A program made the position numbers and the translations under genes. This document shows, in pieces, positions 44,923-56,348 of a DNA stretch of 63,918 bases. The notes under the pieces were generated by a model. It saw only the letters and a program-made list of their open reading frames with translations, had not been told where the DNA came from and did not search any database. The stretch lies in IMG/VR virus record IMGVR_UViG_3300021138_000025, positions 1 through 63,918 of that record, one strand, 5' to 3'. This stretch comes from a virus. Every line of letters begins with the position of its first letter. Within the stretch, counting starts at the first letter, position 1.

Positions 44923-46625
44923 TACTTTTTAAAAAAATTAGATATAAAAATTTATTATCTACGGGAAATCTTTTTACTGAGATTGATTTGAACACTCATA
45001 ACACTTCATTGATTGTTGGTGAGAACGGTGCTGGCAAATCAACCATCCTTGACGCTTTGTCTTTTGTAATCTTCGGTAAAGCATTCCGTAAGATTAATAA
45101 GGCGCAGCTGATCAATACCATAACTCAAAAGAACCTTGTGGTTGAAGTTGAGTTTTTTATTGGTACAAATAACTATAAGATCATTCGTGGAGCAAAGCCG
45201 AATATATTTGAGGTGTATCAAAATGATATTATCCTCAATCAATCTGCAGAAATGAAAGACTATCAAGAAATTCTTGAGAAGCAGATTATGAAAGTTAATC
45301 ATAAATCTTTCTGTCAGGTTGTAGTTCTTGGGTCAGCTACCTTCCAATCTTTCATGCAGTTGAACACAGCGCAACGTCGCGAGATTATTGAAGACCTTCT
45401 TGATCTTCAAATCTTTACAACGATGAATTCTCTTTTGAAAGATAAAGTTCTTATCAATAGTGATTCACTTAACACTTGTTCTAATAATAAGAAAATTGCA
45501 GAAGAAAAGATTAAACTTATTCGTGAACATATGCAAGAGATGCAAAATAATAATGATGCTATTATTGCAGAAAAGAAAGAGCGCATTGAAGAAACTAAAT
45601 CACAGTTAGAAATTTTAACGGCTCAACAAAATAACATTAATGAGGAAGCTAAAGAATTAGCAAGCCAAACTACTAATCTTGAAACGCTTGAAAATAAAAT
45701 GTCTAAGCTTCAATCTTTGAAGCATAAAATTGAAGCTAATCTTGCTATCGTAAATAAAGAAGTCGCTTTCTTTAATAGTCATGACAACTGCCCTACTTGT
45801 AAACAGGAAATTGATCATGATTTTAAATGTGAAGCTATTGATACAAGAAACACTAACATTACTGAAATTCAAGATGGCCTTGATAAACTATCAGCTGAAT
45901 ATGACAAAGTAAACTCTGAAATAAAAAATATGAATCTTATTAATAATCAGGTTCGTCAAAAAGTAATAAACTATCACGTTATTGATACTAAAATTAATTC
46001 ATTGAATACCTATGTTAAACAACTTAACAATGAAATTAATTCAATTCAAAAAACTGTAGAAGAACAGGATAATACAAAGATTGGAGATCTTGAAAAAGAA
46101 TTCTCTGATATCGAGAAAACACATAGTGAGCTTTCTGAAGAAAGGCAGCTTCTTAATGCAGCTGGTGTTTTACTAAAAGATGGCGGTATTAAATCTAAGA
46201 TCATTAAACAGTATATCCCTGTTATCAATAAACTGATTAACAAATATCTTTCCGCCATGGAGTTTATGTGTCAGTTTGAACTAGATGAAAACTTCAACGA
46301 AACTATTAAGTCTCGTTATAGAGATGTGTTTAGTTACGAGAGTTTCTCTGAAGGCGAAAAAATGCGTATCGATCTTGCTATCCTGTTTACATGGAGAGCG
46401 GTTTCGAAACTTCGTAACTCTATCAACACCAACCTTCTTATCATGGATGAGGTATTCGATAGCTCATTGGATTCGAATGGTACAGAAGAATTTTTAAAGA
46501 TATTAAATAGCTTGACTTTTGACACAAATACGTTTATAATAAGTCATAAGACTGATCAACTTTTCGATAAATTCGAACGAGTGATTAAGTTTGAAAAGCA
46601 TAAGAATTTTTCAAGGATAGCTTAA
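44919..46625 (+). CDS. gp46: Recombination nuclease subunit gp46 (Rad50/SbcC-like)
   Basis: A 568-residue SMC-type ATPase begun from a TTG that overlaps the previous stop. Walker A is GENGAGKS at residues 34-41. Two long coiled-coil arms flank a zinc-hook CPTC at C291/C294. The ABC signature region is YESFSEGEKMRIDLA and Walker B is LLIMDEVFDSSLD near residues 506-518. Length is like T4 gp46 (560). It dimerises through the hook and drives DNA-end processing by gp47. Confidence 0.93.
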   Translation: MILFKKIRYKNLLSTGNLFTEIDLNTHNTSLIVGENGAGKSTILDALSFVIFGKAFRKINKAQLINTITQKNLVVEVEFFIGTNNYKIIRGAKPNIFEVYQNDIILNQSAEMKDYQEILEKQIMKVNHKSFCQVVVLGSATFQSFMQLNTAQRREIIEDLLDLQIFTTMNSLLKDKVLINSDSLNTCSNNKKIAEEKIKLIREHMQEMQNNNDAIIAEKKERIEETKSQLEILTAQQNNINEEAKELASQTTNLETLENKMSKLQSLKHKIEANLAIVNKEVAFFNSHDNCPTCKQEIDHDFKCEAIDTRNTNITEIQDGLDKLSAEYDKVNSEIKNMNLINNQVRQKVINYHVIDTKINSLNTYVKQLNNEINSIQKTVEEQDNTKIGDLEKEFSDIEKTHSELSEERQLLNAAGVLLKDGGIKSKIIKQYIPVINKLINKYLSAMEFMCQFELDENFNETIKSRYRDVFSYESFSEGEKMRIDLAILFTWRAVSKLRNSINTNLLIMDEVFDSSLDSNGTEEFLKILNSLTFDTNTFIISHKTDQLFDKFERVIKFEKHKNFSRIA

Positions 46626-47197
46626 TGTTTGAAACTGTTGTAATTGACGATATCGTGGATACTGTAAAACAAAAACATATCCACGATATGTTAATGACTG
46701 CTGACTGGAAATTCCTTATGGATGTTAGTGGTGTGCAAAATACATATCCATCGCATGGTTTTGCTCATGTTTTAAAATATCCAAATGGATTACTTTCTCC
46801 TTTGTATGAGGAAATCAGCCCTCATATTTTAGATTCTATTTCTAGTGGCAATTATAAAATTAAAGAGAACTATTATAACCGTTCTTTCCTTCAGCTGCCA
46901 TTAGCAGCAAAATATATGAAAGAACACAATGGCATTCATGTGGATCTTCCAAAAGAAATTCCACATGTAGCTTGTGTTTATTATGTAAATAATTCAGACG
47001 GTGATACCATTATTTACGAGCAAACTATTAACGATACTCCAGGCGGCTCGAATAATGTTCAACTCATTGAACATAAAAGAGTTGAACCAAAGCGTGGTCG
47101 TATAGTTATGTTTGATGGATCTAGGTATCACTGTAGCAGTCAACCAACGATTAACTATCGTTGTATCATTAACTTCGATTTAATTATGGAACAATAA
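46625..47197 (+). CDS. 2OG-Fe(II) oxygenase, P4HA/phytanoyl-like phage type
   Basis: A 190-residue double-stranded beta-helix dioxygenase. Iron ligands are H105-x-D107 (GIHVDLP) and H169 (SRYHCSSQP), with R179 (NYRCII) as the probable 2-oxoglutarate anchor. The strand between them, VACVYYVNNSDGDTIIYE, is typical of prolyl-hydroxylase-like phage enzymes common in cyanophages. Substrate unknown: a protein side chain or nucleic-acid base is possible. It is tightly coupled to gp46 (TAATG) and to the deformylase downstream. It is unrelated in sequence to the larger dioxygenase at 48859. Confidence 0.8.
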   Translation: MFETVVIDDIVDTVKQKHIHDMLMTADWKFLMDVSGVQNTYPSHGFAHVLKYPNGLLSPLYEEISPHILDSISSGNYKIKENYYNRSFLQLPLAAKYMKEHNGIHVDLPKEIPHVACVYYVNNSDGDTIIYEQTINDTPGGSNNVQLIEHKRVEPKRGRIVMFDGSRYHCSSQPTINYRCIINFDLIMEQ

Positions 47198-48858: not shown

Positions 48859-50163
48859 ATGGTTAGAACACTTGTTGTAAAAAAGCGCGATGTAGAACAT
48901 GTCCTTGGTACATTCATCACCTGTGCAGATTATGCCGATGAAATCATTCAAGAAGATTGTGATTTGTATGCAGAATCGCTTGATGGAACTATCTCAGAAG
49001 AGAATATTATTTTCAAGTATCGCAAGAATGTTTTCAGTCAGGAAGAAATGGATGCAGCCTATACTGGTTTGAGAGATGCTGCGACTGAATCACAGAACCG
49101 TGGACTTGCCGCTGGTCCTCGTGGTGAACAACTTGGGGCTGAAGGTCGTGGTAATCGCGATTGGGTTAGCCCAGAACAAATTGAAATCCTTGCCTTTCTT
49201 GGTAGGCCATTAAATTCTTTTGATGATGGTACTACAATCGAAACGATTAAGGAAAGTCATAAGAAAGGTTCTAAGGAAGAAACTCGCGGTCAGGTATGGC
49301 TTCGTTCTGCAGTATTGCAGAAGTATGAAGAATACCATGGATGGTTTGATAAGTGGCTTGCTGGTATTCATAACCTTTCGCGTGAAGAACAGATGGCTGA
49401 AGCAAAGCATATTGTTGAAAATTATATTTCAGAAACAAATTATGCACAGTCAGTAATGTCTGGTATTGCTGGATACTTCGATCGTTATCCACGTATTCCA
49501 TATGGTCGTGCAACTTCATATACTGAAAAGAATTATGATAAGTTTGCGCTTGTTTTTCCATATCTTCGCAAACTTAATCAACAATTTAAAGAACTACTTC
49601 CTGTACGTTGGGGTGCACAAAACGAATGTGCTCAAAAACTCGATCCTCGTTTTCGTATTGATGAAACTGTCTTTACGACATTGACAGTTAATCATAACTG
49701 GCGTACAGCTTGTCATAGAGATGCTGGAGACTTACATGAAGGATTCTCGAATATTTGCGGCATTACTGGCCCTGAAGGTAAAGGTTGGAAGGGCGCTGAG
49801 TTCATTCTTCCAGAATTTGGTATCGCTATTAATCTCCAGCCTGGAGATATGTTGCTCGTCAATAATCATGGTGGTATTCACGGTAATGATGCACTTATTG
49901 GAGATGATAATGATCGCCTTACCTTGGTATCTTATTTCCGCGAAAAGATGCTTGATCTCAAAGCTTGGGATTACGAAAACCTCCGCAAGCAATATGTCGA
50001 TGAAAGACGAATGAATAAAGATCATCCACTTCATCGCCATCTTTGGAATGGTGTTTCTGCAAATATGTGGGATGAACAAGAATGGTATGACTATATGAAG
50101 AAGCATAATATTGCTGACCCATATGGCAAAGAAGCAGCAGCGAGCTTGGATTCATTCTTCTAA
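48859..50163 (+). CDS. TET/JBP-like 2OG-Fe(II) dioxygenase, predicted DNA-pyrimidine hydroxylase
   Basis: A 434-residue protein. The C-terminal half has the TET/JBP arrangement: FTTLTVNHNWRTACHRDAGD with H286-x-D288, GFSNICGITGPEGKGWKG, AEFILPEFGIAINLQPGDML, then GGIHGND with H341 and DRLTLVSYFRE with R353 as the 2OG anchor. TET/JBP enzymes hydroxylate the methyl of 5mC or thymine inside DNA; phage members start hypermodification pathways (family knowledge). The first 200 residues are helical and unassigned and may bind DNA. The start has AACGGAGAGAAAA. It leads a run of modification-type genes. Which base it acts on cannot be read from sequence. Confidence 0.75.
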   Translation: MVRTLVVKKRDVEHVLGTFITCADYADEIIQEDCDLYAESLDGTISEENIIFKYRKNVFSQEEMDAAYTGLRDAATESQNRGLAAGPRGEQLGAEGRGNRDWVSPEQIEILAFLGRPLNSFDDGTTIETIKESHKKGSKEETRGQVWLRSAVLQKYEEYHGWFDKWLAGIHNLSREEQMAEAKHIVENYISETNYAQSVMSGIAGYFDRYPRIPYGRATSYTEKNYDKFALVFPYLRKLNQQFKELLPVRWGAQNECAQKLDPRFRIDETVFTTLTVNHNWRTACHRDAGDLHEGFSNICGITGPEGKGWKGAEFILPEFGIAINLQPGDMLLVNNHGGIHGNDALIGDDNDRLTLVSYFREKMLDLKAWDYENLRKQYVDERRMNKDHPLHRHLWNGVSANMWDEQEWYDYMKKHNIADPYGKEAAASLDSFF

Positions 50164-50843
50164 TGTGTGGTGTGCTAGGTATAGCGATTAAAAATTTTAC
50201 AAAGAAAGACCACGATTTAGTTCGTGGTCTTTTCATTCAATCTATGATCCGTGGTAAACATGCTAGTGGTGTTTCATATGTCAAAAACGGAATTGTAAAT
50301 ACAGTTAAAGAATCAATACCTGCAGAAGAGTTTATATTAAAACAAAATTTAGATAATTGGAGAAATGAAGATGGAAACCTTTATTGTATTGGTCATATTA
50401 GGTATTCTACTTCTGACTTGCGTTTTAATCAGCCCTTTGGAACTGATTTACTGGGCATTGTTCACAACGGAGTTATATCCCAAGAACCACCAGAAACTTG
50501 GGAAGAGAAATATGGATACAAAACAGAAACTGCAAATGACTCAGAATTGATTTTGAAATGCTGGGAACAACATCAAAATCCTTTGAGCGTTTTTCCTGAA
50601 GCAAGCATGGCAGTTTGCGGTATCAGTTACAATAAAAAATTAACTGCATTTAGAAATGCGGAAAGACCTTTGTATTATTACACTGATGAAAGGTCTAGTG
50701 TGTTTGCTTCAACTAAAGATATTTTAAATCGTTCTGGTTTATCATCTGTAACTAAAACAAAAATGTATGAAGTTATTACAGTTGAAGATTTTAATCTGAC
50801 ACGGCTTCCTATGAATGACATTAATGTAGAGGACTTGCAATGA
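50163..50843 (+). CDS. Stand-alone class II glutamine amidotransferase
   Basis: A 226-residue N-terminal-nucleophile amidotransferase. The start MCGVLGIAI gives Cys2 as nucleophile after Met removal. Then MIRGKHASGVSYV, CIGHIRYSTSDLRFNQPF, LGIVHNGVISQ, and the TANDSELILKC segment match the glutaminase domain of PurF/GlmS/AsnB-type enzymes. No synthase domain follows, so it must hand ammonia to a partner; the adjoining amidoligase is the obvious candidate. The start overlaps the dioxygenase stop (TAATG), and the end overlaps the amidoligase start (ATGA). Confidence 0.85.
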   Translation: MCGVLGIAIKNFTKKDHDLVRGLFIQSMIRGKHASGVSYVKNGIVNTVKESIPAEEFILKQNLDNWRNEDGNLYCIGHIRYSTSDLRFNQPFGTDLLGIVHNGVISQEPPETWEEKYGYKTETANDSELILKCWEQHQNPLSVFPEASMAVCGISYNKKLTAFRNAERPLYYYTDERSSVFASTKDILNRSGLSSVTKTKMYEVITVEDFNLTRLPMNDINVEDLQ

Positions 50844-51724
50844 ATTACGATCCAAAAGATTATACATGGGGCTACGAAATTGAGTGGGGTGATATTGACA
50901 GGCGTACAATTATCCCTTCGCATTTAGGTAAGTGGGAATTTGCTGAAACAGATATTGTTAATTTGAATGGCGAGTTTCGTGGCCTTGCATGCGATCCATT
51001 AGGTGAATCACCTCCAGTTGGTGGTGAAATTAATACAAAGCCAACTGCAACTTGGCAAGATCAAGTTGAACGTATTATGGAAATTAAAAAGCTCTTTACT
51101 GATTTAAAACAATCACCAACAGCTTCTTGTGTCAATCATGGTCATCTTCATGTCTATGTTCCTGGATTGAAAGATGATATTCCTGCATTGAAGAAGTTAG
51201 TTAAGTATATTCGAGACAATCAACACATTACAATTGATAGATTATATCAGTACCGTCTTGATCCTCTTATGTCCAGTGCTAAAACTGCCAAGACATATTT
51301 GAAGTGGGATGGTGGTCGTCCAATGCCCGACTATATGTGTAACAACATTATTAGTCTTACACAGGACTTCGAGCATTTTATTAAACTTCATGCGGCTGGT
51401 AAAGATGGTGTATCAATGGGTCGGCCATTCCGATATGCAATCAATACATATTGCATGAAACATACTGGAACAATTGAGTTCCGTTGTTTGCGTTCTTCAA
51501 CAGAGCGTAGGGAAATTGAAGACTCATTTAGGTTTGCGGAAAAGTTTATTGAAGCTGCATTAAATGATGGTCCACCAGTAGAAGATATTCTTAGCGAATA
51601 TGATTATCAGTTTCCTAAATTTAATTACGACCATGAAATGTATCTCGGCTGGGAGAAAACAAAATATGATAAGTCAAGAGGCAATAAGCAACGTGAGTTC
51701 CTTTCAGTTGAGGCCAACGACTAA
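50840..51724 (+). CDS. Amidoligase of the GCS2/Amidoligase_2 type
   Basis: A 294-residue carboxylate-amine ligase. The family pattern is visible: GYEIEWGD at residues 11-18, GGEINTKPT at 61-69, CVNHGHLHVYVPG at 97-109, RYAINTY at 198-204 and TGTIEFRCLRSS at 209-220. Enzymes of this superfamily (glutamine-synthetase-like fold) join a carboxyl and an amine with ATP and are often encoded beside class II amidotransferases and GNAT proteins in biosynthetic clusters. Here all three genes are adjacent and overlapping. A likely task is building or amidating an amino-acid adduct destined for DNA, which is an inference from the neighbourhood. Confidence 0.78.
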   Translation: MNYDPKDYTWGYEIEWGDIDRRTIIPSHLGKWEFAETDIVNLNGEFRGLACDPLGESPPVGGEINTKPTATWQDQVERIMEIKKLFTDLKQSPTASCVNHGHLHVYVPGLKDDIPALKKLVKYIRDNQHITIDRLYQYRLDPLMSSAKTAKTYLKWDGGRPMPDYMCNNIISLTQDFEHFIKLHAAGKDGVSMGRPFRYAINTYCMKHTGTIEFRCLRSSTERREIEDSFRFAEKFIEAALNDGPPVEDILSEYDYQFPKFNYDHEMYLGWEKTKYDKSRGNKQREFLSVEAND

Positions 51725-52220
51725 AACTGAATTCATTGCTTCTCTTACTGATTTAAAAGAAGATAAGTTTGCCAAAACATTCGTTGCTAAATGCAACATG
51801 ATGGATGATTGGGATAAATGTAGGGGTGTGTGGATCGACGGTAGACTTGCAGGAGCTATCGTCGTTACCATTTCAAAACGTAAACCAATCACTGCTAATC
51901 TTCAACTTCTCCATACTTTCCATGAGTTCAGAGGTAAGGGTGTTGCTCGTAAATTGTGCGAGTGGGCAAAGGATCATGCTATTGAAATGGATGCAGAATA
52001 CTTTCGTGTTTCTGCGGAGTTTGATGCGGTTCCATTTTATGAGAAGTGTGGATTTAAATTCGTTTGCAAACAAAAAACAGCCAAGCTCGCCATGTTTAAA
52101 CTTTCTGACCCAGATATTATTGATGAATACATTTGGAAAACGATGAAGAAAAAAGGTAAAGGCGGATGCGTAGAGTGTTACGTTGATTATAAAGGTGTTG
52201 ACTTTTTTCAAGAAGTATAG
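51666..52220 (+). CDS. GNAT acetyltransferase
   Basis: I choose ATG 51666 (ribosome site GGGAGAAAACAAA), which gives 184 residues; earlier ATGs lie deep in the amidoligase gene. The GNAT fold is clear from LQLLHTFHEFRGKGVARKLC with the acetyl-CoA loop RGKGVA at residues 89-94, followed by AEYFRVSAEFDAVPFYEKCG. The C-terminal 45 residues are basic and contain a Cys pair (GGCVECYVDY). GNATs acetylate amines; in this context the amine could be a DNA-base adduct or an intermediate. The gene overlaps the amidoligase end by 59 bases and carries the next promoter in its last codons. Confidence 0.8.
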   Translation: MISQEAISNVSSFQLRPTTKTEFIASLTDLKEDKFAKTFVAKCNMMDDWDKCRGVWIDGRLAGAIVVTISKRKPITANLQLLHTFHEFRGKGVARKLCEWAKDHAIEMDAEYFRVSAEFDAVPFYEKCGFKFVCKQKTAKLAMFKLSDPDIIDEYIWKTMKKKGKGGCVECYVDYKGVDFFQEV

Positions 52221-52226
52221 TATAAT
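52198..52226 (+). promoter_or_regulatory. Sigma-70-like promoter at the end of the GNAT gene
   Basis: TTGACT at 52198-52203, 17-base spacer, TATAAT at 52221-52226. The TAG stop of the GNAT gene directly precedes the -10 box. It would drive the GIY-YIG/ParB, transferase and kinase genes. Confidence 0.75.
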
Positions 52227-52250
52227 ATCTATATAACTTAGGAGATTGTT

Positions 52251-53528
52251 ATGGATTACGATGCAATCGTTTACGGCTGGCGTAATATTGAAAATAAAAT
52301 GATGTATGTGGGGTTCCATAAAACCCAAGAAGAATTTGATGGATATGTCACTTCTTCCGAAAGCGAAGAACTTAGACATGCATGGTCACATGGTCTTTTA
52401 AATCGTACAATTCTTTATCGTGGAACTGTTTCCGAGTCTATCACTTTTGAGAATTTTATTCTTAAGAGTGTTGATGCTCGCGTCAATCCTATGTTTTATA
52501 ACCGCTCGAATGGTGGCGGCGTAGGCTGTCAATCTTTTGATATCATAACAAAAGATATGAAGAAGATTGCAGAAAAGTGGTTAGGTGGTAATGACAATAT
52601 CAATAAATTAAAGCGTGAATTTCTCGCTAATAAAAAATTGGTTAAGTCGATTAAGAAAAAGATCGAAGCAGGTCATTATGTTATCTTCGAAGAGAAGATA
52701 GAAAACCTTGTCAATCTTCCACGCAACCAAGTTCGTTTGGTTGATTATGATCCTGATCATCTTCAAGAAATTACAGAGAGCATGCGATATGACCCAAAGG
52801 GTGCACGCAAATTAGTTTCTCCTGTAATTGTTTCTGTAGATGCAGAAGGATATAAACTAATCCTTGATGGCAATCATACCACAACTGCCGCATATAATGC
52901 CAAGTGGACAACCCTTCCTACAATCTACATTAACAGTTCAGACTTCGAGGATAACCAAGCTAACTATAATGATTTTGGATTGTTGATGAACCATCATCCA
53001 AAGCGTAAAAAATCTAATACGAAAGAAGATTGTAAGAAAGCAATTATGAATCTTCTAGAGGTTTCTAAATTAGAAATCGGTTCATCTCAATTCCGCGAAT
53101 GTTGTATTATTAATCTTGAAGAATATTTCAGTAAGCCAACAATTACTGCAAATATTAATTCTGTGGCTACAATTTTAAAAGAGCAACAGGATATTATTAA
53201 ATACAACTTTAAGAAGTATGGTAAATCTGATATTGAACAAATTACTAAAGGTTGCGAATATTTGAATCCAAATAAAGCGATTATTTCTATCACCTCTGAT
53301 TCCTCATATAATGCAGGGGTTGGCGCTATTCTTAATAAGATGGGCGGTCTGGATTGTTGGGAAGGAATTATGCTTGTCAATCATAGAAATATGCACGAAT
53401 ACGATCGACGTAATGAACATCATTCTAAACTTATGAAAGCACTTGAACGTATTCATCCAAATGCAAAAGTTGAAGTTCAATACCTACCTTCCTTCATTGA
53501 TATGAAAAATAATGAACTCCATCAGTAA
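52251..53528 (+). CDS. GIY-YIG-like plus ParB-like fusion protein
   Basis: A 425-residue protein. The N-terminal domain (about residues 5-85: IVYGWRNIENKMMYVGFHKT, FENFILKSVDARVNPMFYNR) resembles a GIY-YIG fold as in the homing endonucleases of this window. The middle (about 143-235) is ParB-like: LPRNQVRLVDYDPDHLQEIT, LVSPVIVSVDAEGYKLILDG and NHTTTAAYNAKW, with D206-G-N-H209 as the typical ParB phosphate-loop motif. The C-terminal 190 residues are unassigned. ParB-like domains recur in phage DNA-modification clusters. It may be a modification-sensing nuclease or DNA-binding factor. It overlaps the next gene by 17 bases. Confidence 0.65.
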   Translation: MDYDAIVYGWRNIENKMMYVGFHKTQEEFDGYVTSSESEELRHAWSHGLLNRTILYRGTVSESITFENFILKSVDARVNPMFYNRSNGGGVGCQSFDIITKDMKKIAEKWLGGNDNINKLKREFLANKKLVKSIKKKIEAGHYVIFEEKIENLVNLPRNQVRLVDYDPDHLQEITESMRYDPKGARKLVSPVIVSVDAEGYKLILDGNHTTTAAYNAKWTTLPTIYINSSDFEDNQANYNDFGLLMNHHPKRKKSNTKEDCKKAIMNLLEVSKLEIGSSQFRECCIINLEEYFSKPTITANINSVATILKEQQDIIKYNFKKYGKSDIEQITKGCEYLNPNKAIISITSDSSYNAGVGAILNKMGGLDCWEGIMLVNHRNMHEYDRRNEHHSKLMKALERIHPNAKVEVQYLPSFIDMKNNELHQ

Positions 53529-54498
53529 ACAACGTAAACAAGATTTCATAAATTGGTATAAGTGGTCGCTGTCCATTAAGGATTGCGACCCCGCCATTTT
53601 TATGACCAATTATCTTTTTGATAGATTTGAGCATAACAAAGAACAAAAACTTTGGATTGCTTGGATCTATGGTACAACGTATTATCTTCCAACAACATGG
53701 GTTATATGGAATGAATTCCCAGACTTCGAACTCGTCGGGCTTGAACGACTCCGCGAATGGAATAATAACAATTACAAACGGCTCCGTTATCAAACTGACA
53801 CCAAGTGGAACAAAGGTCATCTTCCAGCCCAGTTCGAGTCGTACAAAAACTGGGTGGGAGATAAAACTCAACGCGAAGCATTTGCGCCCTATCTCATCGG
53901 AGAGCCAAGAGAAAACTTTGACCGACTCTGGCCAGAAATAAACAAGCTCCATAAATTCGGAAGATATTCTTCTTGGTTCTATATGCAAACACTTAAACAG
54001 TGCTGCGGTTTATCAATTGAACCGAAGAATCTAATGTTGGAAGATCATGACGGTTCGCGTTCACATCGTAATGGTCTTTGTATGGCTCTTGGTCTAGATG
54101 AATGGTACGATCAAAAACTTAACGCGCAACAGATTAATTATCTCGACGGCGAAGCTTACTACATACTTCAAGAGGTAAAGAAAGAATTTCCCACTACTGA
54201 TTATTTCGATATGGAAACTTGTCTTTGTTCGTTCAAAAAACTATTCCGTAAGACACGTGGACGTTACCTTGGGTATTATATTGATAGACAGGCAGAAGAA
54301 ATTTCGCAGTGCGCATCAGATGACTGGAAAGGTATTGACTGGCAACCGCTTTGGGATGCCAGAATTGAAACTTTAGAAAATAAACTGTTGACTAATCGCA
54401 TAGATAATAGTAGAATGAGTCTATACCTAGATTCTAACGTGTTGGATGCCACTGGACTTTTCGAAAAGAAAAGTGTTGGTCTTGAGGGGTTTTTTTAA
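53512..54498 (+). CDS. Amino acid:DNA transferase (alpha-glutamyl/putrescinyl-thymine pyrophosphorylase family)
   Basis: A 328-residue protein I assign to the family first predicted as alpha-glutamyl/putrescinyl-thymine pyrophosphorylase. These enzymes have a DNA-glycosylase-like helical fold, and members were later shown to attach amino acids to phosphorylated hydroxymethyl bases. Visible pattern: NWYKWSLSIKDCDPAIFMTN, EHNKEQKLWIAWIYGTTYYL, TTWVIWNEFPDFELVGLERL, RLRYQTDTKWNKGHLPAQF, and LEDHDGSRSHRNGL at residues 176-189 with possible catalytic Asp. A P-loop kinase of the partner type follows directly, which supports the call. The start overlaps the fusion gene. Confidence 0.7.
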   Translation: MNSISKQRKQDFINWYKWSLSIKDCDPAIFMTNYLFDRFEHNKEQKLWIAWIYGTTYYLPTTWVIWNEFPDFELVGLERLREWNNNNYKRLRYQTDTKWNKGHLPAQFESYKNWVGDKTQREAFAPYLIGEPRENFDRLWPEINKLHKFGRYSSWFYMQTLKQCCGLSIEPKNLMLEDHDGSRSHRNGLCMALGLDEWYDQKLNAQQINYLDGEAYYILQEVKKEFPTTDYFDMETCLCSFKKLFRKTRGRYLGYYIDRQAEEISQCASDDWKGIDWQPLWDARIETLENKLLTNRIDNSRMSLYLDSNVLDATGLFEKKSVGLEGFF

Positions 54499-55058
54499 TG
54501 AAAGTTATTGAGATTTTAAAGATGCGTGTGATAGCGATTGGTGGTGAGCCTGGATCTGGTAAATCCACATTAATGTGGAAGTTGATTAATCATTATCAAC
54601 CGAAGCCTATGTATGATGCATATAAGTTAGTTCCATATCTTCAGAAGGATAACATTTATATCCTTGGTAAGTATGAAGAAGGTGAAGTGTTTTCTGGCAC
54701 TGATAGGATGAGCATGGCTGTCCAGCCAGAAGCTATTAAATTTTTAAGCACATTAAATGATAGCTCAGTTGTTCTTTACGAAGGCGATCGTTTGTTTACA
54801 TCTTCATTCCTTGAAGATTGCGCTGAAAAATATACTCTTGAGATTATCTATCTTTCAACCTTAAAGGAAGTTAGAACCACGCGATACGCAGAGCGTGGTA
54901 GCAATCAAAATGAAACTTGGTTGCGTGGTCGTGAGAGTAAAATTGGTAACATTCTAACTAATTTCGATTTGATGTTTTTAACAGAGAAGTTTTTAAACAA
55001 CAATCTAGATGAACAGAAAGTAGTATTTGATAAAATTGTGGAGAAGATAAATGAATAA
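54498..55058 (+). CDS. P-loop kinase, predicted hydroxymethylpyrimidine-DNA kinase
   Basis: A 186-residue kinase with Walker A GGEPGSGKST at residues 15-24, YEGDRLF at 94-100 and a basic lid ERGSNQNETWLRGRESK at 132-148. This layout is that of the small P-loop kinases paired with amino acid:DNA transferases in phages with hypermodified thymine, where they phosphorylate 5-hydroxymethyl-dU in DNA to make it a leaving group. The start overlaps the transferase stop (TAATG), so the two are co-translated. If the target here is hydroxymethylcytosine instead, the same chemistry would apply. Confidence 0.72.
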   Translation: MKVIEILKMRVIAIGGEPGSGKSTLMWKLINHYQPKPMYDAYKLVPYLQKDNIYILGKYEEGEVFSGTDRMSMAVQPEAIKFLSTLNDSSVVLYEGDRLFTSSFLEDCAEKYTLEIIYLSTLKEVRTTRYAERGSNQNETWLRGRESKIGNILTNFDLMFLTEKFLNNNLDEQKVVFDKIVEKINE

Positions 55059-55494
55059 TAATGGAGGTTATGTAGTAGGTGCTATTGGTTCTACCAATTT
55101 TGGGCATTATCCTACTGGATCAAATGGAGGAGTTGATCCTAATTTTGATGTAATTTACGATGAATCTGGAGGAGTTATCGGCACAGCTGGTAAATTAATC
55201 AGTACACAAAATAAAAATATTTCGTATAAATATGGCGAAGATACCTATATTCAAGAAATTTCTGACTATATAGATAAGACATATGGTCAACATTACTCAA
55301 AAAATCAATTTCAAGCAACAGAGTTTATTATTGACTCTGGACATGGCACAGGATTTTGTATTGGTAATGTTTTGAAATATGCTCAGCGTTACGGTAGAAA
55401 AGGCACCCGTGATGAATGGCGAAAAGACCTAATGAAAGTGATTCACTACGCAATGATGCAATTACATGTCCATGATAATGAAGGAAGTAAATAA
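55051..55494 (+). CDS. DUF3310-like protein
   Basis: A 147-residue protein. The C-terminal 80 residues carry the DUF3310 arrangement: HYSKNQFQATEFIIDSGHG, then FCIGNVLKYAQRYGRKGTRD and RKDLMKVIHYAMMQLHVH (the FxxGNxxKYxxRxxxKxxxxDLxKxxxY pattern of small phage nucleotide-kinase-like or accessory proteins). The N-terminal 65 residues are Gly/Asn-rich and disordered. It overlaps the kinase by 8 bases. DUF3310 proteins are widespread in phages and of unsettled function. Confidence 0.65.
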   Translation: MNNNGGYVVGAIGSTNFGHYPTGSNGGVDPNFDVIYDESGGVIGTAGKLISTQNKNISYKYGEDTYIQEISDYIDKTYGQHYSKNQFQATEFIIDSGHGTGFCIGNVLKYAQRYGRKGTRDEWRKDLMKVIHYAMMQLHVHDNEGSK

Positions 55495-56348
55495 TGGAAA
55501 TTAATATTAATATTGAAGATCTAAGAAAGCGTAAGCTTTTTGTTGCTACACCAATGTATGGTGGTATGTGTGCAGGTATGTTTGCACGGTCAGTTGCTGA
55601 CCTCTCTGCAATTTGTACACAATATGGAATTCCCCTTCAGTTTTATTTCTTGTTTAACGAGTCTTTGATTACTCGCGCAAGAAATTACTGCGTTGATGAA
55701 TTTATTCGGTCAGGCGCTGATCATCTTATGTTCATTGACTCTGATATTGGATTCAATCCTCAGGATGTTATTGCATTGATGGCTCTTCAAGCTCAAGATG
55801 AAAAGTATGATATCATCGGTGGTCCATATCCTAAGAAGTGCATCAGCTGGGAAAAGATTAAATTGGCAGTTGATAAGGGTATCGCTGACGAAGATCCAAA
55901 TGTTCTCGAGAAGTTCGTTGGTGATTATGTCTTCAATCCAAAGGGTGGCCAGCAGTCTATCTCTATCGCTGATCCATGCGAAGTTCTTGAAATTGGTACT
56001 GGCTTCATGATGATCTCGAAGCAAGCTATGTCTAAGTTCTGTGATTTCTATCCTCAGTATATGTACAAGCCTGATCACGTTCGTACTGAACACTTCGATG
56101 GCACTCGTAAGATCATGATGGCTTTCCAAGCTGAAGTCGATCCTAAGTCTGAGCGTTATCTTTCAGAAGATTATTGGTTCTGTCAGAAGGCTCAGGAAGC
56201 TGGTCTTAAGACTTGGTTCTGCCCATGGATGAAGATGCAACATGTTGGCACTTATATCTTTGGTGGTTCGCTCGCCGACCTCGCATCGATCGGTGCATCT
56301 GCTACTGCTGACCCAAGTGCGCTTGGTGGTAAAGCAAAGAAACTTTGA
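55494..56348 (+). CDS. GT-A glycosyltransferase of cyanophage type
   Basis: A 284-residue protein. KLFVATPMYGGMCAGMFARS starts the nucleotide-binding half, NESLITRARN follows at residues 55-64, and FIDSDIGFNP gives the D82-S-D84 metal motif. Further segments are IIGGPYPKKCISW, EVLEIGTGFMMIS and YLSEDYWFCQKA, the acceptor-side and catalytic-base elements. Close relatives occur in many T4-like cyanophages next to DNA-replication genes. In the present neighbourhood DNA-base glycosylation is a reasonable guess, but modification of virion protein or host sugars cannot be excluded. Confidence 0.75.
   Translation: MEININIEDLRKRKLFVATPMYGGMCAGMFARSVADLSAICTQYGIPLQFYFLFNESLITRARNYCVDEFIRSGADHLMFIDSDIGFNPQDVIALMALQAQDEKYDIIGGPYPKKCISWEKIKLAVDKGIADEDPNVLEKFVGDYVFNPKGGQQSISIADPCEVLEIGTGFMMISKQAMSKFCDFYPQYMYKPDHVRTEHFDGTRKIMMAFQAEVDPKSERYLSEDYWFCQKAQEAGLKTWFCPWMKMQHVGTYIFGGSLADLASIGASATADPSALGGKAKKL

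Follow-up and report, generated by a model that had tools for sequence, protein, structure and literature searches.

A stretch of virus DNA in which a TET/JBP-like dioxygenase gene heads a row of ligase, transferase and kinase genes raises the question of whether these enzymes together build a modified DNA base and, if so, from which pyrimidine. The stretch, IMG/VR virus record IMGVR_UViG_3300021138_000025 (63,918 bases), is called the window here, and all gene coordinates are based on it. An initial annotation made from the sequence alone had proposed that the genes at positions 48859-56348 lead from a methylpyrimidine in DNA to an amino-acid or sugar adduct. We find that positions 48859-55058 constitute a real conserved module. 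It is reasonably probable, judging from its genes, that this module carries out post-replicative DNA hypermodification, in which a hydroxymethyl base made by the TET-like enzyme would be processed by a kinase and an amino acid:DNA transferase (ADDT) and then amidated and acetylated.

A conserved module headed by a TET/JBP dioxygenase

Examination of the open reading frames located all eight genes named in the initial annotation, together with the DUF3310 gene, in the order claimed, and the family profiles are mostly matched above their cut-offs. The features are as follows, where the 31 loci are the amidoligase loci defined below.

48859..50163, plus strand: TET/JBP 2-oxoglutarate (2OG)-Fe(II) dioxygenase, 434 amino acids, predicted first step (Tet_JBP 67.8 bits, cut-off 34.9, 8.4e-19; phrog_24024 over the full length; invariant residues; AlphaFold2 (AF2) model)
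50163..50843, plus strand: class II (Ntn) glutamine amidotransferase domain, Cys2, predicted ammonia source (GATase_6 38.3 bits, cut-off 27, 1.6e-9; invariant residues)
50840..51724, plus strand: amidoligase with glutamine-synthetase/GCS fold, predicted to form an amide on the adduct (Amidoligase_2 below cut-off; AF2 model; EXE, HXH and EXR motifs)
51600..52220, plus strand: GNAT N-acetyltransferase (Acetyltransf_10 44.8 bits, cut-off 23.6, 1.6e-11; 28 of 31 loci)
52251..53528, plus strand: ParB-like protein, an accessory that may serve in targeting and whose N-terminus is possibly GIY-YIG (PHROG ParB 1.2e-5; similar gene at 20 of 31 loci)
53512..54498, plus strand: ADDT, predicted substitution step (Pfam ADDT 94.2 bits, cut-off 26.2, 1.3e-26)
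54498..55058, plus strand: P-loop kinase, predicted to phosphorylate a 5-hydroxymethyl base in DNA (Ploopntkinase3 48.0 bits, cut-off 27; Walker A GGEPGSGKST)
55051..55494, plus strand: DUF3310 protein (39.5 bits, cut-off 24), neighbour outside the module (follows almost all cassettes in the T4-like slot; 13 of 31 loci)
55494..56348, plus strand: GT-A-like protein, backbone neighbour outside the module (phrog_1574 over the full length, Pfam glycosyltransferase matches weak only; 16 of 31 loci)

As had been noticed earlier, most stop and start codons overlap: seven of the eight junctions from the TET gene to the glycosyltransferase gene do so, the sole exception being a 30-base gap between the GNAT and ParB-like genes. 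The GNAT start codon is uncertain, and the longest reading frame shares 125 bases with the amidoligase gene. Dozens of independent contigs show the same gene order, and the arrangement is thus not due to chance.

The 48859 product is assigned as a TET/JBP dioxygenase, which very probably oxidizes a base already present in the DNA. The residues on which this assignment had first been founded (H286-x-D288, H341 and R353, the HxD...H...R set of Fe/2OG residues) are invariant across 83 homologues, and the closest PDB structures to the AF2 model (pLDDT 77.5, pTM 0.68), a double-stranded beta-helix, are CcTet, TET2 and NgTET1, with values from 3e-8 to 1e-4. The TETs of phages Cr30, DLP6, S-CBWM1 and HTVC112P (L002, L003, L005 and L006) carry the annotation ‘SNF2 DNA repair protein’, a label contradicted by their full-length similarity to the Tet_JBP protein of the window. 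Upstream, at 46625-47197, lies a second 2OG-Fe(II) oxygenase-like gene, which matches PF13640 just under the cut-off and is labelled ‘DNA endonuclease V’ in PHROGs.

The remaining enzymes were assigned in a similar manner. In the amidotransferase, whose class II identity and Cys2 the initial annotation had recognized, residues C2, R80, N102-G103 and D126 are invariant among homologues. The same is true of E13, E15, H102, H104, R198, E213 and R215 of the amidoligase, which make up its three motifs; Amidoligase_2 is weakly matched by 18 of 20 family members (best member 3.7e-4), and the structures nearest to its AF2 model (pLDDT 88) are almost all from the glutamine synthetase/GCS superfamily (glutamine synthetase, YbdK and GCS), with E-values that are not significant alone. 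Sequence searches of the amidoligase and ADDT against PDB gave no match. The ADDT has a homologue in Kuttervirus with 29% identity, and the kinase, whose Walker A motif is conserved among homologues, has relatives in Cr30, Melnitz, Tonitrus and mycobacteriophages. Thus, the profile searches on the 48859, 53512 and 54498 products, which had been named as a possible refutation, returned the proposed families in each case. For the proposed GIY-YIG/ParB fusion, the ParB half stands on the PHROG match (ParB_N gives 14.6 bits, below its cut-off of 26.3), and the GIY-YIG half on a motif, as searches of Pfam and PHROGs up to an E-value of 1 returned no GIY-YIG profile for this N-terminus. ParB genes adjoin or lie near TET genes in Cinna, Tonitrus and HTVC112P, and the ParB-like protein is regarded as an accessory, possibly with a role in targeting.

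Evidence for the module comes from co-inheritance. From IMG/VR we used the best 80 of 138 TET relatives and the best 80 of at least 200 amidoligase relatives, and linkage was counted in the 31 distinct contigs that extend at least 5 kb to either side of the amidoligase gene (23 after clustering at 95%). The TET, amidotransferase, ADDT and kinase genes all lie within 6 kb in 31 of 31 contigs (23 of 23 after clustering), and this linkage persists despite differing genomic background. Gene order varies, with the TET gene last, after the kinase gene, in contigs L135, L138 and L140, and between the ADDT and kinase genes in L163. From these counts and this variable order, we define the module as the TET, amidotransferase, amidoligase, GNAT, ADDT and kinase genes, with the ParB-like gene as an optional member. 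Among cellular genomes, the amidoligase was found in only one 3.6-kb contig, which is binned to an Actinomycetota metagenome-assembled genome, has the identical gene order and is probably viral in origin.

Exchangeable cassettes behind the dioxygenase gene

A census of 51 TET loci that extend to a downstream glycosyltransferase or clamp gene revealed that the interval can hold different sets of genes: an amide-type cassette as in the window (19 loci), a TAGT glycosyltransferase (PF20691; 17), a pair of genes termed c9/c10 (7), a methyltransferase with ADDT and kinase (7), or myo-inositol-1-phosphate synthase with ADDT, HAD and kinase (1). None of 50 loci contains both TAGT and kinase; under the assumption of independent loci, which does not hold, the chance of this is about 5e-8. 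Cr30 departs from the pattern in that a weak TAGT match lies beside ADDT. The slot holds TAGT in some relatives and ADDT plus kinase in others, both of which act downstream of a base hydroxyl. With such exchange, the intermediate shared by the cassettes must be the TET product, for which a hydroxymethyl pyrimidine in DNA is the simplest candidate.

A FastTree phylogeny of 128 TETs requires 21 changes of the cassette label (minimum 3), and for the amide-type cassette alone at least 11 changes are forced by well-supported branches. We give roughly even chances to the proposal that a conserved JBP-like thymine hydroxylase serves as a fixed platform behind which entire tailoring cassettes are exchanged time and again among T4-like freshwater phages, such that one slot would yield many DNA bases, including several with novel chemistry. 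The candidate products, proposed with the same evenly balanced confidence, are an amidated and acetylated amino-acid adduct, a TAGT sugar, a methyltransferase-linked adduct and an inositol adduct.

Several individual cassettes deserve description. The conserved, unnamed c9/c10 pair (326 and 147 amino acids; L011:11305-12282, L060:2426-2869 and relatives) replaces the cassette behind TET at its seven loci, and the c9 protein matches no Pfam family above cut-off. Further searching for the inositol cassette (ADDT, myo-inositol-1-phosphate synthase, HAD-like and kinase genes beside TET) added many contigs; the cassette is present in L049, L065, L209-L217, L220 and L221 and in the cultured Caulobacter phage Cr30 (L002:12027-17894), and its predicted product is an inositol-substituted DNA base. 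In phage C48C1 (L004 9001-12355), TET is followed by an unassigned gene and then by UDP-galactopyranose mutase, from which a galactofuranosylated base is predicted. Synechococcus phage S-CBWM1 (L005 3729-7921) carries TET, TAGT, HAD, NTP (nucleoside triphosphate) transferase and APH-like kinase genes consecutively, a possible phage-encoded supply of activated sugar for base glycosylation.

Thymine or cytosine as the substrate

The earlier proposal of a methylpyrimidine start had left the base open; it is probably thymine in DNA, acted on in a JBP-like manner. We compared a window-type set of 69 records, namely the window, four complete genomes (Cr30, DLP6, C48C1 and S-CBWM1) and 64 contigs (some of 99-168 kb, including contigs of 162 and 168 kb), with records whose TETs resemble that of Methylophilales phage Melnitz. 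The two types of TET sequence are about 23-26% alike. A cytosine C5-methyltransferase (C5-MTase; PF00145) was found in 0 of the 69 window-type records, whereas the identical search was positive in 16 of 16 Melnitz-type records, and an adjacent C5-MTase is present at 57 of 57 Melnitz-type loci with 1.5 kb upstream. This contrast favours thymine. HTVC112P-type TETs gave no C5-MTase either. Melnitz itself (L227 2951-7031) has C5-MTase, TET, ParB-like and kinase genes in that order, and 57 of its 71 IMG/VR relatives were testable. The residue at +5 from the first His was tried as a discriminator between thymine and cytosine and rejected, as it is Asp in both types of TET.

A hydroxymethylase of the thymidylate synthase family (PF00303) was likewise found neither in the window nor in the 64 contigs, DLP6, C48C1 or S-CBWM1, with a Kuttervirus control positive. 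In the window fragment, therefore, searches for a hydroxymethylase and a 5-methylcytosine (5mC) methyltransferase, both suggested by the initial annotation, recovered neither. An additional indication comes from Simon (PQ683277, an unannotated sewage phage; L170 5864-13543), which encodes a thymidylate-synthase-family enzyme, a 5-hydroxymethyldeoxyuridine (5-hmdU) DNA kinase helical domain (4e-42), ADDT, amidoligase, a low-molecular-weight phosphatase and a flavin adenine dinucleotide (FAD) oxidoreductase. Its amidoligase and phosphatase are 39% and 37% identical, respectively, to a TET-linked pair in contig L063. Simon thus pairs related tailoring enzymes with a start of the nucleotide-pool type, which favours thymine. 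No further amidoligases of the Simon type were found in IMG/VR.

Some observations weigh against this interpretation. The 50840 product scores 14.8 bits with Amidoligase_2 (PF12224), below the cut-off of 22, the kinase gave no HMUDK match in the Pfam search, and Cr30 carries a thymidylate-synthase-family (PF00303) protein. As the window covers only a 64-kb fragment and its relatives are mostly contigs, a missing C5-MTase is no proof for any single genome, and 5mC may be supplied by the host. The kinase family and the ParB-like gene are also present in the Melnitz C5-MTase system and hence do not fix the base. Thymine is also not certain because TAGT relatives act on bases derived from 5-hydroxymethylcytosine (5hmC) in T6-like phages (PMC13390438).

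It is accordingly conceivable, but in our judgement unlikely, that the module acts on cytosine, with 5mC from the host or an unlinked methyltransferase being converted by TET to 5hmC before phosphorylation and substitution. The gene combination at Melnitz-type loci and the family of the slot-sharing TAGT would both fit this scheme. Burke et al. in 2021 reportedly described that phage TETs known by experiment work with C5-MTases on cytosine, which counts in its favour. The scheme is opposed by the C5-MTase search of the 69 records, the four complete genomes included, and by the link in Simon between a related amidoligase and 5hmdU-type enzymes.

Membership of the pathway

It is quite improbable that the amidotransferase, amidoligase and GNAT enzymes act in the synthesis of a small molecule or in modification of the cell wall or of a protein, and reside in a DNA-modification operon incidentally. 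A published study (PMC10580990, citing Iyer 2009) suggests cell-wall modification for amidoligase and GATase pairs in other phages. Here, the invariable linkage of the amidoligase to TET, ADDT and kinase across differing backgrounds bears out the assignment of the trio to the hypermodification pathway; moreover, a related amidoligase sits in the TET-less 5hmdU-type cassette of Simon, and cassette exchange replaces the entire trio at once with different base-tailoring enzymes.

The least tenable reading, a complete nine-gene pathway in which the GT-A enzyme encoded at 55494 performs a final glycosylation, as the initial annotation implied, is consistent with the adjacent and overlapping genes but very improbable, since the glycosyltransferase gene is linked at only about half of the module loci, keeps its position whichever cassette type precedes it and is found in T4-like Sinorhizobium phages giving no TET match. 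This gene (phrog_1574) occurs in 62 phage records, versus 9 with TET. On their distribution, the DUF3310 and glycosyltransferase genes are rejected as pathway members and assigned to a T4-like backbone, which leaves the ‘sugar adduct’ without a basis here.

Comparison with known systems

Iyer et al. in 2013 reportedly predicted TET-generated hydroxymethyl pyrimidines as starting points, and Lee et al. in 2018/2021 are said to have described thymidine hypermodification in phages ViI, M6 and phiW-14. In those phages (PMC6449724, PMC9476957), as proposed for the window, a P-loop kinase adds phosphate to a hydroxymethyl pyrimidine in DNA, after which transferases carry out the substitution, and the ADDT of the window, homologous to the Kuttervirus protein, is of the ViI/M6 type. 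Unlike the window, which has TET and in which a hydroxymethylase was not found, they make 5-hydroxymethyldeoxyuridine triphosphate in the nucleotide pool. They also employ pyridoxal phosphate and radical S-adenosylmethionine enzymes in contrast to amidotransferase, amidoligase and GNAT, and the ViI/M6 kinase is HMUDK rather than Ploopntkinase3.

Rhodococcus phage Tonitrus carries ParB, TET-like, aGPT-Pplase2 and 5-hydroxymethyluracil kinase genes, proposed as a thymidine hypermodification set (PMC11955845). The window resembles Tonitrus in combining TET, ADDT and Ploopntkinase3 with ParB, and parts of the set are present in Microbacterium phage Cinna and Mycobacterium phage Phelemich. Unlike in the window, an amidotransferase or amidoligase was neither annotated nor found in the actinophage regions viewed, and Phelemich has an FAD oxidoreductase at the corresponding place. 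With Melnitz, the window shares TET, a ParB-like gene and a related kinase, but not the adjacent C5-MTase, and the TET sequences are hardly alike. With Simon, it shares amidoligase, P-loop kinase and ADDT; Simon differs in having the thymidylate-synthase-family enzyme and kinase helical domain in place of TET, plus the phosphatase and oxidoreductase.

The novelty that the initial annotation saw in a TET start for kinase and transferase systems was therefore overstated, as the Tonitrus set and the Melnitz genes precede it. TET, kinase and ADDT were already known together in phages; what appears new, within a literature search that key papers lie outside, is the joining of the trio to these enzymes, the exchange of cassettes and the C5-MTase contrast.

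A proposed route and its implications

Profiles, catalytic residues and complete linkage support TET-initiated hypermodification with a kinase and a transferase. We infer the thymine substrate, the order of steps, the identity of the adduct and its biological role. The TET/JBP enzyme would hydroxylate the methyl group of thymine in DNA to give 5-hydroxymethyluracil, the hydroxyl of which the P-loop kinase would phosphorylate. An amino acid, or a nucleophile like it, would then take the place of the phosphate or pyrophosphate through the action of ADDT. With ammonia delivered by the amidotransferase, the amidoligase would amidate the carboxylate of the adduct or join a second amine, and GNAT would acetylate an amine, leaving a largely neutral adduct. 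The likely purpose would be to shield virion DNA from host nucleases.

If this is true, phages would make 5-hydroxymethyluracil directly in DNA by means of a JBP-like enzyme and swap the decorating enzymes as blocks, which would let the base encountered by host nucleases change rapidly. The module predicts DNA bases bearing amides and inositol. Furthermore, the presence or absence of an adjacent C5-MTase would provide a simple genomic rule for distinguishing cytosine- from thymine-directed phage TETs, to which the cultured phages Cr30, DLP6, S-CBWM1, Tonitrus and Melnitz are relevant.

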